Positions 33,504 through 46,357 of a stretch of DNA of 64,000 nt are shown here, in pieces. Numbering within the stretch: position 1 is the first letter of the stretch; each line of letters opens with the position of its first letter. The position numbers and the translations under genes are program-made. This DNA is from Acidobacteriota bacterium (GTDB taxonomy: Bacteria > Acidobacteriota > Terriglobia > Terriglobales > Acidobacteriaceae). The stretch is from assembly GCA_031296115.1 (NCBI GenBank), contig JARLGI010000027.1, positions 124,001 to 188,000 on the forward strand, read 5' to 3'. The notes beneath the pieces were generated by a model. The model did not search any database. It saw only the letters and a program-made list of their open reading frames with translations, and was not told the origin of the DNA.

Positions 33504-34169
33504 CTAGAAAAAGAATGAGTGAAATTGTTCCGAAATCTCATCTGGCAGGGTGTCACGGTTCGACTTCTGCCACAGACCGTGAGCTGCTCCCTCAATCGCC
33601 GCTAGTTTAGTTTTCCCCAGGATCAACTTGAGCGCCGCTTGCAGCTCTCCGATCGAGCCGAAAGCGTCTCGCGTGCCGCTGATGAACAGGCAGGGAATTC
33701 TTAGCTGAGGAAAGTGGGTTGTCCGCAATTGCGCCGGCCGCCCGGGAGGATGCAGCGGGTAGGAGAGCAGCAGCAATCCTTCCACCAGCGCCGGTTCCGC
33801 TGCCGCTAGCATGCTGGCCTGGCGCCCGCCATACGACGAACCGCCGAGAAAGGCATGTCCGGCGAACTGTTTCTTCATCAGCGTGACGGCCCGACGCAGT
33901 CCTTCCTGGTCGTGCTTGGCGTCGGACGGCGAGGGCGGACCGGTTGGACGACGCTGGCGATACGGCAAATCGCAGCGCAGAACGTTCAAGCCCGACTCAG
34001 CCAGACGTTCCGCGAGCGCCACTAGCAACGGGGTGTTGCAATTGCCGCCAGCCCCGTGCGCGAGGACCAGGAAATCCCCGGACGGACTCGTAGCGCGATG
34101 AAGGAACCCGCGCACCGGAGCTTCGCCGGTGGATTCCTCCGCAAACGGTTGTGCAATACTCTTGCTCAC
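33504..34169 (-). CDS. Alpha/beta hydrolase (TEX30/KANSL3-like)
   Basis: A 221-residue cytosolic alpha/beta hydrolase. LVLAHGAGGNCNTPL is the oxyanion strand, GGSSYGGRQAS the nucleophile elbow, SGTRDAFG the acid and GAAHGLW the His. LPYRQRRPTGPPSPSDAKHD is typical of the small family related to eukaryotic TEX30. The substrate is unknown. It lies 32 bases after the peroxiredoxin gene on the same strand and may be co-transcribed. Confidence 0.85.
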   Translation of the reverse strand: MSKSIAQPFAEESTGEAPVRGFLHRATSPSGDFLVLAHGAGGNCNTPLLVALAERLAESGLNVLRCDLPYRQRRPTGPPSPSDAKHDQEGLRRAVTLMKKQFAGHAFLGGSSYGGRQASMLAAAEPALVEGLLLLSYPLHPPGRPAQLRTTHFPQLRIPCLFISGTRDAFGSIGELQAALKLILGKTKLAAIEGAAHGLWQKSNRDTLPDEISEQFHSFFF

Positions 34170-34201: not shown

Positions 34202-34738
34202 CTACCGCCCCAGCTTCCGCGCCTCGCACGCCTGCACTACCTTGCTCGGGTCAATGGCCGCCGAATCGAGCTGCATCTCGATGACCTTGCCGTCCTTGTC
34301 GATCAGGTAGTTCACCCGGCGCGCAGCCCTGTATTTTGGGTTGAACAGTCCATACTCCTTGGTCACGTCGCCGCCCCAGTCGCTGAGCAAGGGGAAGGTG
34401 ACGCCGATCTTTTCCGCCCACGCTTTATTGGAGAAGGGAGAATCCATGCTTACACCCAGGACCTGGGTATCCGCAGCTTCCAGCTTCGACAAATTCTGCT
34501 GGAAAGCCTGCATCTGCTTGCTTCAACCACCGGTGAAGGCGAAGATGTAGAAGGCCAGGGCGACGTTCTTCTTGCCCTTGAAATCGCGCAGGGAAACTTT
34601 GTTGCCGTTCTGGTCCTGCAAAGTGAAGTCGGGTGCCATATCGCCGACCTTGATCTTCGGCGCGGGGGTTTCTTCGGCGGCATAGGTCGCCGGCGCCAGG
34701 GTGGCCGCCAGCAGCAGTGCCAGGAAAATCTGCTTCAT
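34202..34738 (-). CDS. Exported peroxiredoxin with in-frame TGA at the peroxidatic position (probable selenoprotein)
   Basis: A 178-residue AhpC/TSA-type peroxiredoxin after a signal peptide (MKQIFLALLLAATLAPA, cleavage near TYAAE). The frame has one internal TGA at 34525-34523, codon 72. It lies in AFTGG-[TGA]-SKQMQAFQ, exactly where related proteins have the peroxidatic Cys (AFTGGCxK). Conserved sequence continues to VLGVSMDSP, AEKIGVTFPLLSD and INYLIDKDGKV-like VNYLIDKDGKV on the far side. No other lesion is present, and a SECIS-like hairpin follows the TGA. Selenocysteine insertion is the best reading; a Cys-to-stop mutation cannot be excluded. AGGAGA precedes ATG 34738. Confidence 0.8.
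34476..34507 (-). promoter_or_regulatory. Bacterial SECIS-like hairpin after the peroxiredoxin TGA
   Basis: GCTTTCCAGC (34507-34498) pairs with GCTGGAAGC (34484-34476) leaving one bulged T and a 13-base loop that begins A-G. The loop G lies 26-27 bases after the TGA, within the 16-37 base window of bacterial SECIS elements, and a G in the first two loop positions agrees with the published consensus. Confidence 0.65.
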
Positions 34739-34863
34739 GGACTCTCTCCTATCGCTCACAGGGCCGTGTGGCCTCAGCGTCGGCATTGTCCCATTAACTT
34801 GGGGCAATCTACCAATGCGGTTAAGCGAGGCTCTGCTTCCCATTATGGGAATAGCCCTTTTCG

Positions 34864-34986: not shown

Positions 34987-35634
34987 ATGAAGGACGACCC
35001 CCAAATTCCAGTCAAGCCGAATGGCGACAGCGTTCTGGCCGTGCCGCGGAATGCCGATAAATACCAGCGCATTCTCGACGCTGCGGTTTCGGTGTTTGCG
35101 GAGAAGGGTTTTTTTAACTCGCGCGTCTCGGACATCGCCGACCGCGCCGATGTCGCCGATGGCACCGTTTATCTCTACTTCAAGAACAAGGACGAGATAC
35201 TCAAGACCGCCATCAACACAGCGTTTGACGGCTTCATGCGGCAGGCGCGAACTCAATTGGAGAAGCTGGCCGATCCTGCCGACCGGCTGCGACGGCTGGC
35301 GTTTCTGCATCTCGATGCGCTGGGCTCGAACCGCAACCTGGCCGTGGTATTTCAGATGGAGCTGCGGCAGAGTACGCGTTTCCTATCGGAGTTCTCTCAC
35401 CACCACATGATTGAGTATCTGAGGCTGGTCCGCACCGCCATCGGCGACGGGCAGGCCAGCGGGTTCTTTCGCCGCGAGATGTCGGACAAGGTCGTGGCCA
35501 ACTGTTTCTTCGGCGCGCTCGATGAGATGGTGACCTCCTGGGTGCTAAGCGAACATGAATATCGCCTGTCCGGAATGGCCGATGCTGTGGTGGACATTTT
35601 CTTGAACGGGATGCGGGTCGCCCGGACACCGTAA
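34987..35634 (+). CDS. TetR family regulator, FadR-like
   Basis: A 215-residue TetR protein. The helix-turn-helix region is VAEKGFFNSRVSDIADRADVADGTVYLYF-like (AVSVFAEKGFFNSRVSDIA, then VADGTVYLYFKNKDEIL). The ligand domain (VFQMELRQSTRF, FFGALDEMVTSWVL) resembles Bacillus subtilis FadR (YsiA), which represses fatty-acid degradation genes and is released by long-chain acyl-CoA. The matching operator at 34901 and the acyl-CoA ligase 188 bases downstream support this role. Confidence 0.88.
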   Translation: MKDDPQIPVKPNGDSVLAVPRNADKYQRILDAAVSVFAEKGFFNSRVSDIADRADVADGTVYLYFKNKDEILKTAINTAFDGFMRQARTQLEKLADPADRLRRLAFLHLDALGSNRNLAVVFQMELRQSTRFLSEFSHHHMIEYLRLVRTAIGDGQASGFFRREMSDKVVANCFFGALDEMVTSWVLSEHEYRLSGMADAVVDIFLNGMRVARTP

Positions 35635-35822: not shown

Positions 35823-37616
35823 ATGAGCATTCGGACCCTCAATGACGTTTTCTTCACCGTGGTGGACCGCGACAATCCGCACGTCATGCTCACGCGTGAG
35901 AACGAAACCTGGAACCCCATTTCATCAACGCGGCTGCGCAGTCGCGTTTATTCCACCGCGCAACAGCTGCAGTCCTGGGGCATAGCCAAGGGCGATCGTA
36001 TCGTAATCCTCAGCGAAAACCGTCCGGAGTGGGCCGTTGCCGATTACGCCACGTTGCTGCTGGGCGCGGTGGTGGTGCCCATCTACGCCACCCAGACCGC
36101 TGACCAGGTGCTGTACGTCCTGCAAAATTCCCAAGCCCGGGTCGCTTTCGTCTCTACCCGGCAGCAGTATGAAAAGCTCGCGCCGCTACGCGAGCAGAGC
36201 AGCCTGGAATACGTCGTCGTGATGGACGACGCTCCGGAGTTGGCCAGCGCCATTCATATGCGTTCGTTCCTGCGTGACGACCATGCTGGTTCTGACGCCG
36301 AGCTGGATGCTATTGGCTCCGCCGTCGAGCCGGACGACCTGGCCACGCTCATCTATACCTCCGGCACGACCGGGACACCGAAGGGCGTTATGCTAACCCA
36401 CGGAAACATCGCCTCCAACGTTAGCGTTTCGCTGGACATGGTCGAGGTGGGAAAGGACGACCTCAGCATTTCGTACCTGCCGCTGTCGCATATTACGGCG
36501 CGCCATGTGGACTACGCGCTGGTCTACCACCACATCACCATCGCTTATTGCCCCAACATCGACGACCTGGCTCGTGCCATGCGGGAGGTGAAACCGACCA
36601 TCATTGTGGCTGTGCCGCGAGTGTACGAGAAGGTCTACAACTCGGTGCAACATAAGATGCACGGTGTGAAAGGCGCGCTCTTCAAGTGGGCGCTGTCCGT
36701 GGGCGCGGCGAACCGCGAAGCGATTCTGCGAGGTGAGACGCCCACAGCGTTCTCCTGGAGGCTGGCCAACAAACTGGTGTTTTCCAAGGTGCGGGAAGGT
36801 TTGGGCGGCCGCGCCCGGGTGTTCGTCTCCGGCGGAGCCCCTCTGGGCCGCGAAATTGCCACCTGGTACGCAGACATCGGCATCCGCATCCACGAAGGGT
36901 ACGGCCTGACCGAGACCTCGCCGGTAATCGCCCTCAATAACCCCATCTATCATCGCCTGGGCGCGGTCGGAAAACCGCTGTCGAATGTTGAAGTGCGGAT
37001 CGCGGCGGATGGCGAGATCCTGGTCAAGGGGCCTTCGATCTTCAAAGGCTATTGGAACATGCCGGAGGAAACCGCCAGCGCCTTCGAGGATGGCTGGTTC
37101 AAGACCGGAGACGTCGGCGCGATCGATGCCGACGGGTATCTTTCCATTACCGACCGTAAGAAAGACTTGATCAAGACCTCCGGCGGAAAATTCATCGCGC
37201 CCCAGCCCATCGAAAATTCGCTGAAGGCCAACATGCTGGTCGGCGAAGCCGCGTTGCTGGGCGACAAGCGCAAGTTTCCGGCCGTGCTCATCGTCCCTAA
37301 TTTTCAGGAGCTGGAGGACTGGGCGCAGCACCACGGCGTGAAGTTTTCCTCGCGCAAAGAGCTGGTGAAGTCGCCGCACGTGCAGGCGCTCTACGAGGGC
37401 ATCGTGGAAGAACTGAACCGCAACCTGGCGCAGTACGAGAAGCTGAAAAAGGTGCTGGTCATCCCCGAGGAGCTCAGCATCGCCGACGGCACGCTCACCC
37501 CGAGCATGAAACTGCGCCGCCGCCATCTGGAAGCGCGTTACAAGAAGGAAATTGACGGGCTTTACGCTGACGCGACGGCGGCCCGTGCGCGGGCTACCGG
37601 CCACGCGGTGAATTAA
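35823..37616 (+). CDS. Long-chain fatty-acid-CoA ligase (AMP-binding)
   Basis: A 597-residue ANL-family enzyme. The AMP-binding motif is LIYTSGTTGTPKGVMLTHGN, followed by YLPLSHITAR, then GYGLTETSP and the hinge GWFKTGDVGAIDADGYLSITDRKK. It activates fatty acids to acyl-AMP and then acyl-CoA. The membrane long-chain type (FadD/FACL, with large C-terminal lid) fits the length. It is downstream of the FadR-like gene and probably in that regulon. The ATG has only weak GAAAG upstream. Confidence 0.92.
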   Translation: MSIRTLNDVFFTVVDRDNPHVMLTRENETWNPISSTRLRSRVYSTAQQLQSWGIAKGDRIVILSENRPEWAVADYATLLLGAVVVPIYATQTADQVLYVLQNSQARVAFVSTRQQYEKLAPLREQSSLEYVVVMDDAPELASAIHMRSFLRDDHAGSDAELDAIGSAVEPDDLATLIYTSGTTGTPKGVMLTHGNIASNVSVSLDMVEVGKDDLSISYLPLSHITARHVDYALVYHHITIAYCPNIDDLARAMREVKPTIIVAVPRVYEKVYNSVQHKMHGVKGALFKWALSVGAANREAILRGETPTAFSWRLANKLVFSKVREGLGGRARVFVSGGAPLGREIATWYADIGIRIHEGYGLTETSPVIALNNPIYHRLGAVGKPLSNVEVRIAADGEILVKGPSIFKGYWNMPEETASAFEDGWFKTGDVGAIDADGYLSITDRKKDLIKTSGGKFIAPQPIENSLKANMLVGEAALLGDKRKFPAVLIVPNFQELEDWAQHHGVKFSSRKELVKSPHVQALYEGIVEELNRNLAQYEKLKKVLVIPEELSIADGTLTPSMKLRRRHLEARYKKEIDGLYADATAARARATGHAVN

Positions 37617-46245: not shown

Positions 46246-46265
46246 CCCAGCGGTGAAGCGCTGGG
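46246..46265. repeat. Small GTGAAG-loop hairpin
   Basis: CCCAGCG (46246-46252) and CGCTGGG (46259-46265) flank a six-base loop in the spacer between the TlpA-like and GT2 genes. It resembles other short TGAA-loop hairpins in this window. Confidence 0.45.
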
Positions 46266-46357
46266 CTAAGCTCTTTCGCGCCTACGGCGCTGCGAAGGCA
46301 GCACGCCTGAATGCCGAGCGCTGATTGCCGAGTGTTCGCGCTCAGTCTGGTGTCACA

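Follow-up and report, generated by a model that had tools for sequence, protein, structure and literature searches.

A predicted exported selenocysteine peroxiredoxin of Acidobacteriota with a conserved C-terminal cysteine

The window analyzed here, a stretch of 64,000 nucleotides from an Acidobacteriota assembly (GCA_031296115.1, contig JARLGI010000027.1, positions 124,001 to 188,000), encodes a peroxiredoxin with a predicted leader peptide in which a single in-frame TGA stands at the position of the peroxidatic residue. Because the same TGA arrangement recurs in close relatives, the gene is, judged by sequence comparison, that of a selenoprotein rather than a broken gene, and a secreted selenocysteine (Sec) peroxidase is, taken as a whole, very probably the best explanation. 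The parts of this reading carry different weights: comparison of the sequences makes it close to certain that Sec is really inserted at position 72, export of the protein is predicted and highly likely, and the predicted peroxidase activity is likely. Gene callers would truncate the Sec-peroxiredoxin at the TGA.

Gene anatomy and host selenocysteine machinery

The gene, its elements and its nearest neighbors in the window are as follows:
34202-34738, minus strand: coding sequence of the predicted exported Sec-peroxiredoxin, 178 residues with U72 (ATG at 34738, TAG ending at 34202)
34744-34750, minus strand: Shine-Dalgarno-like AGGAGAG, 5' of the ATG
34679-34738, minus strand: predicted signal peptide, residues 1-20, with putative cleavage after ATYA read from the sequence (home-made hydropathy rule)
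34523-34525, minus strand: putative Sec codon 72, the in-frame TGA, peroxidatic residue in AFTGGU
34473-34511 (core 34477-34505), minus strand: candidate SECIS hairpin of 8 bp with a 13-nt loop, AGAAUUUGUCGAA, and lower stem GCAG/CUGC
34226-34228, minus strand: codon of Cys171, the sole Cys of the mature protein and candidate resolving residue, at U72 +99
33504-34169, minus strand: alpha/beta hydrolase (Abhydrolase_11), GTG start 32 nt past the stop of the Sec-peroxiredoxin gene; also in the vicinity at 5 of the 45 loci from relatives, all of them closely related
34987-35634, plus strand: divergent TetR-family regulator; also in the vicinity at 9 of the 45 loci from relatives
35823-37616, plus strand: AMP-binding acyl-CoA-ligase-like protein; also in the vicinity at 12 of the 45 loci from relatives

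Translated through the TGA, the protein has the N-terminus MKQIFLALLLAATLAPATYA-AEETPAPK and the active-site motif AFTGG-U72-SKQMQ, and it matched AhpC-TSA (PF00578) across residues 31-154 without a break at the TGA (E 5e-38, Pfam search with the read-through protein). The single in-frame TGA at codon 72 (34525-34523) had been placed exactly in a preliminary description of this DNA, which had also claimed that the TGA occupies the peroxidatic position of AFTGG-x-SKQMQ, that peroxiredoxin sequence runs on past it and that a random mutation would rarely fall on just this codon. All of this held, as evidenced by the presence of the TGA at this codon in all 62 members of the clade described below, by the one AhpC-TSA match covering both sides of the codon and by the 47 top matches from a search of 297 genomes in the phylum, all with exactly one in-frame stop, a TGA. 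A broken gene or a sequencing error, in which the TGA would be a nonsense mutation and the coding sequence beyond it a relic, could draw on the facts that an in-frame stop in one contig of a metagenome-assembled genome (MAG) can be an error and that the hairpin, taken as a single sequence, is not exceptional. Against this stand the alignment of homologues at codon 72, which the preliminary description had suggested as a check and which found the same TGA in all 62 relatives from many other assemblies, the conservation of the part after the TGA with its invariant R141 and C171, and the enrichment of tRNA-Sec among carrier genomes; we regard this explanation as refuted by the conservation of the TGA and its probability as negligible.

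TGA was also found to serve as a normal stop, ending 2 of 8 neighboring genes and 15 of 42 six-frame open stretches of at least ~300 codons, a count that takes in non-coding frames. The neighboring genes that end in TGA, the Sec machinery genes of the host, the coincidence of the codon with the catalytic Cys/Sec site of the fold and the constrained hairpin after the UGA all argue against decoding of UGA as another amino acid (e.g., Trp) or by ordinary suppression, which we consider very improbable; general UGA reassignment was rejected in view of the TGA stops nearby and the host Sec machinery.

The host assembly (3.75 Mb, 125 contigs, 93.6% complete) was found to contain selA, selB, selD and a tRNA-Sec, the four genes that the preliminary description had named for a genome check; the lack of selB or tRNA-Sec that it had given as refuting was thus not observed. 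The tRNA-Sec gave one match of 67.1 bits against the Rfam cut-off of 47 (5 of 14 control genomes were also above it) and was called independently by ARAGORN with anticodon TCA, while SelB scored 383.8 bits against a cut-off of 242 (2 of 14 controls above), SelA 565.1 bits (1 of 14 controls above the cut-off) and SelD 365.7 bits (2 of 14 controls above the cut-off). The host SelD has an in-frame TGA of its own, in GUASK, and is a candidate second selenoprotein of this genome. Across the phylum, tRNA-Sec was detected in 43 of 45 carrier genomes versus 135 of 252 others (Fisher p = 6e-9, a test that ignores genome relatedness); of the two carriers lacking a match, G234 had SelB above the cut-off, and G266, which is 72% complete, had a weaker SelB-profile match. 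Three Sec-peroxiredoxin carriers of family f47 (G214, G270 and G108; loci L154-L156) had a SelD free of in-frame stops and in this differed from the other 19 of 22 genomes. Separately, a peroxiredoxin with AhpC-TSA and 1-cysPrx_C domains (L001:1497-2309) was noted 40 nt from the host tRNA-Sec gene.

Clade membership and Cys-containing counterparts

The clade comprises 62 members, the window gene and 61 loci. The best 47 matches of the 297-genome phylum search yielded 46 clade loci from 45 genomes, the remaining match being the leaderless L084, and 16 members came from a named-genome scan (19 loci, the other 3 being PrxQ). Carriers thus number at least 45 of 297 genomes, a minimum since many lower-scoring matches lie outside those read or listed. 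In addition to the shared TGA, all 62 members had T at U-3, G at U-1, AF at U-5/-4 and exactly one Cys in the mature domain, located at +97 (1 member), +99 (37), +100 (15), +101 (2), +104 (1) or +105 (6) relative to U. A hydrophobic leader was recognized by the home-made hydropathy rule in 61 of 62 members, the exception being L071, which possibly has a wrong start. Among the 46 aligned members the invariant columns included T69, G71, the U72 site, R141 and C171; this alignment (A1) and the tree each omit 16 of the 62 members, mostly near-identical ones. In the tree, a quick one with SH-aLRT support only, the exported clade held together save for weakly supported deep forks. For the exported clade, at least one change is forced by the starred branches, and two are needed on the tree as drawn; a single origin is compatible with these data. 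A plasmid search matched 7 records, all at less than 60% identity.

The preliminary description had expected an exported Sec peroxiredoxin to be unusual in such genomes, an expectation contradicted both by the number of carriers and by a second exported-looking Sec type, U-x3-C, found at nine more Acidobacteriota loci (L107, L177-L184) and in Pseudomonadota MAGs (L111, L112), with motifs such as FTGGUTAEC and FTGGUTMQC. Its C-x3-C counterparts were L161, L164, L172 and L176 in Acidobacteriota and L114 and L115 in Pseudomonadota. Like the clade, these are exported-looking TxxU or TxxC proteins with profile similarity to it; unlike the clade, they have the second Cys four residues past the catalytic residue and no C-terminal Cys, and they exist in both Sec and Cys forms, whereas no Cys form of the clade was seen among the loci read. 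Their five tree members fell on a branch separate from the clade (99*).

The search for a Cys form of the clade covered 37 Cys-type Acidobacteriota loci (16 + 21), among which there was none, and no locus had a sole C-terminal Cys in the +97 to +105 range; the types represented were PrxQ-like (C-x4-C, or Cys at +36), exported C-x3-C, leaderless TPVC-like and AhpC. None of a further 23 TGA-type Acidobacteriota loci (7 + 16) fell in the clade, including L193, which had no clear leader and had Cys at +31, +104 and further on. At L187 the motif rule found no catalytic residue. Sampling beyond Acidobacteriota consisted of 398 Pseudomonadota genomes, 3 single genomes and the named-genome scan. The Pseudomonadota search (E 1e-32) matched 49 genomes, and a sole C-terminal Cys was absent from the 22 loci read of those matched, which were of PrxQ-like or exported C-x3-C type; one of them, L120 of the C-x4-C type, has an unrelated Cys near the protein end.

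Two other kinds of Sec peroxiredoxin were encountered. TPVU-like proteins without a clear leader were found at L084, L088-L090, L106, L110, L186, L191, L193 and L194, and since those placed in the tree (L084, L088-L090, L106 and L110) were intermixed with Cys forms, exchange between Sec and Cys has probably occurred among these leaderless types, as far as sequences can tell. A TAGU/TPGU type (L188-L190 and L192) had no Cys at +4/+5 except in L192 (+5).

Hairpins downstream of the UGA

In the window, UUUCCAGC pairs with GCUGGAAG to form a candidate SECIS hairpin whose loop begins 25 nt past the UGA and has G at position 2. The bacterial SECIS (bSECIS) model as described in PMC13188914 calls for a loop of 3-9 nt with G in one of its first two positions, a spacing of 16-37 nt, a stem of 4-16 bp and an MFE of at most -7.5, and the same source mentions that some bSECIS elements lie outside the model. 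The preliminary claim that the hairpin follows the SECIS rules therefore stood for spacing (25), loop G, stem (8 bp) and folding energy (-15.9 kcal/mol) and fell for the 13-nt loop, which exceeds the model's range. The window hairpin was no stabler than shuffled sequence (z = 0.01), and the single-sequence fold was accordingly dropped as proof of a SECIS. A strict scan with the model passed 6 of 25 members with the first hairpin type defined below (the window failed) and 33 of the 37 other members; it was likewise dropped as proof and given little weight either way, because it also passed 37% (2733 of 7418) of in-frame positions picked arbitrarily from these genes.

By eye, members were sorted into type 1 (n = 25) and type 2 (n = 34), with L046, L077 and L087 in neither and outside the pair counts, so that two hairpin designs follow the same UGA (L028-L051 and L071-L086 versus L022-L027, L029, L032, L037 and L052-L067). 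Type 2 (28 distinct sequences among its 34 members) has the core UAUCAG(G/U)CUGAUA or UACCAGGCUGGUA and a 3-nt loop starting 23 nt past the UGA (e.g., L034 and L073). Pairing was kept in 86.1% of cells, and covariation was 0.194 versus 0.085 in shuffled alignments (reached in 0 of 500), with slid versions giving 0.001-0.145; the number of covarying pairs was unremarkable (4 versus 3.0, with 116 of 500 shuffles as high), as were pair types (487 of 500 as high). One U-A to C-G change links a synonymous Tyr codon change (TAT/TAC) with an Asp/Gly change. Synonymous codons were frozen at CAG (+8) and GCT/TCT (+9) in 33 of 33 cases. Of 165 windows of 16 codons, the six under the strongest constraint were those that start between -3 and +2 relative to the UGA.

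Type 1 (25 members including the window, 23 distinct) has the UUUCCAGC/GCUGGAAG pairing and the 13-nt loop, with pairing kept in 93.5% of cells, a value that none of 500 shuffles reached. Covariation was modest (0.155 versus 0.120 shuffled, 2 of 500 as high), only 2 pairs covaried (158 of 500 as high), and sliding by one column gave more two-sided cells (5 versus 4). The codon window +1 to +16 ranked 16th of 182, and CTG was used at +14 in 24 of 24 Leu codons. The tree groups its 18 type-1 members together (100*), next to L030, which is type 2, an arrangement that suggests a single replacement of the hairpin, on the type-1 branch. SelD hairpins were searched in 22 genomes, of which the three of family f47 were left out (no stop), and the motif search read 10 of 19 loci, 6 of 9 from type-1 genomes and 4 of 10 from type-2 genomes. 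All 6 readable genomes of family f1 had a 3-nt loop in this hairpin; the same SelB would therefore need to accept both hairpin shapes. With its different hairpins behind one and the same codon, the gene provides a naturally occurring set of variants. We hold as an evenly balanced proposition that the clade is a Sec-obligate periplasmic subfamily with an AhpE/PrxQ-like scaffold and a pair of Sec and C-terminal Cys, in which Sec is never swapped for Cys, lineages without Sec lose the gene, and one Terriglobia-centered branch has replaced a small-loop SECIS with a 13-nt-loop hairpin; if this is true, SECIS turnover would be directly traceable within one orthologous gene.

Catalytic site, proposed mechanism and relation to known peroxiredoxins

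The protein is predicted to have a peroxiredoxin fold, with an AhpC-TSA/Redoxin domain present. An AlphaFold2 model built on a 46-row alignment had a mean pLDDT of 91, with residues 1-20 under 60, and placed U72 as the third residue of helix 70-81 and C171 in the last helix, 165-175. The best Foldseek matches were AhpE chains of Mycobacterium tuberculosis (36-38% identity, TM 0.77 by query and up to 0.90 by target), followed by Sulfolobus Bcp1 and Bcp4, and a PDB profile search returned 2ywn first and AhpE next. With respect to the PxxxTxxC(U) motif and its Arg, T was present in 62 of 62 members and R141 was invariant in the 46 aligned; the P position is occupied by P in 13 of 62 members and by I65 in the window protein. 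T69 and R141 we take to be the residues that assist peroxide attack, as in peroxiredoxins generally.

In the mechanism we propose, SelB, directed by the hairpin just past the UGA, would insert selenocysteine 72 into a secreted peroxiredoxin of AhpE/PrxQ-like type. The selenolate would attack peroxide in the periplasm, assisted by Thr69 and Arg141, to give a selenenic acid. Condensation of this acid with Cys171 of the C-terminal helix, within or between subunits, would then yield a selenenylsulfide, by analogy with the two reacting cysteines, peroxidatic and resolving, of human Prdx5. The selenenylsulfide step is proposed because the U-Cys spacing of 97-105 resembles that of human Prdx5, an atypical 2-Cys enzyme in which catalytic Cys48 and resolving Cys152 are joined intramolecularly at a spacing of +104 (PMC6790197). 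By this analogy Cys171 is probably the resolving residue, a putative role carried over from an enzyme that was absent among the best sequence or fold matches listed. We judge it rather unlikely that the enzyme is instead of an AhpE-like 1-Sec type, in which Cys171 has another role and an external thiol reduces the selenenic acid directly: Foldseek places the 1-Cys AhpE of M. tuberculosis closest and C171 sits in a confidently modeled helix, yet C171 is the sole mature Cys, is kept in 62 of 62 members and has a near-constant spacing close to that between the two cysteines of Prdx5. Moreover, of the leaderless Sec relatives, L084, L089, L106 and L110 have no second Cys and L088 and L090 have one only at +31; the C-terminal Cys therefore goes with the exported clade.

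We class the protein as both a selenoprotein and a peroxiredoxin and place it outside AhpE, PrxQ and PrxU. It shares with AhpE of M. tuberculosis the AF dyad and the T before the catalytic residue and differs from it in its leader, its invariant C-terminal Cys, its Sec in place of Cys and the G, rather than V/I, that precedes this residue. The AhpE subfamily, which is 1-Cys, is described as having the AF dyad, T/S, and V or I as the residue that immediately precedes the catalytic one (PMC5302317); in the clade AF and T were found in 62 of 62 members, but G preceded U in 62 of 62. The invariant second Cys of the clade is a candidate resolving residue. The C-x4-C of PrxQ/BCP was likewise absent, U+5 being K, Q, R, N or S in all 62. 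With the TxxU family (PrxU) the clade shares the peroxiredoxin domain, the peroxidatic Sec and T at U-3, and it differs in its leader peptide, its C-terminal Cys partner and the lack of P at U-7 in 49 of 62 members. Against the NCBIfam model for PrxU (NF040737) the window protein scored 77.8 bits versus a cut-off of 270; it reached the cut-off of no NCBIfam model (PRK09437, 89.5 versus 140).

TxxU Sec peroxiredoxins have been known since 2001, when PrxU of Eubacterium acidaminophilum was reported (Sohling 2001, cited in PMC13188914); the family is entered in a review table (PMC13188914) and is represented by 253 sequences in the GOS survey (PMC2398784) and 43 in the Sargasso Sea data (PMC1088965). 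Zhang (2006) counted 12 bacterial peroxiredoxin selenoproteins, and 4 selenoproteins of 3 families in Acidobacteria (PMC1794560); the deep-Sep paper gives three known selenoprotein genes in one Acidobacteriota genome (PMC12013277). As our own searches show, this phylum also has exported Sec types of other kinds. What appears to be new is a subfamily that has a C-terminal Cys partner and, in one branch, an atypical hairpin, that showed no Cys form among the loci read and whose window member stays below every NCBIfam cut-off; a description of it was not found in the literature searched, which was mainly open-access. Cys homologues are said to exist for almost every selenoprotein, and detectors that work by homology depend on Cys/Sec pairs (PMC13188914); deep-Sep may miss selenoproteins without Cys homologues (PMC12013277). 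Since no Cys form occurred among the loci read and the hairpin of one branch is off-model, both usual kinds of detector could miss the clade.

With a Sec peroxidase probably located outside the cytoplasm, one has to ask how reduction of a periplasmic selenenylsulfide would proceed. In our proposal a periplasmic reducing pathway would recycle it, plausibly with host CcdA, TlpA/ResA-like and DsbD_N proteins as putative electron donors, an assignment that we make tentatively. The host encodes a CcdA-type DsbD_TM protein followed by TlpA/ResA-like (WCPPC) and DsbD_N-domain proteins in mutually adjacent genes (L135:2066-8152), which lie 2.3-4.2 kb from selB and are unlinked to the Sec-peroxiredoxin gene. 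As to the substrate, a lipid or organic hydroperoxide in place of H2O2, or a protein that mainly relays oxidation to partner proteins, would agree with the probable export and with the acyl-CoA-ligase-like gene and TetR regulator nearby in near relatives; this neighborhood, however, was present in only part of the near relatives, the features examined do not discriminate between such substrates, and we find the alternative somewhat unlikely. The search for a conserved operon yielded little: the hydrolase, regulator and ligase-like genes recurred in 5, 9 and 12 of 45 loci, 29 of which had only ~1.5 kb flanks. Elsewhere in the window, an Acido-Lenti-1 RNA (RF01687) was detected at 46246-46291 on the plus strand (47.5 bits versus a cut-off of 37).
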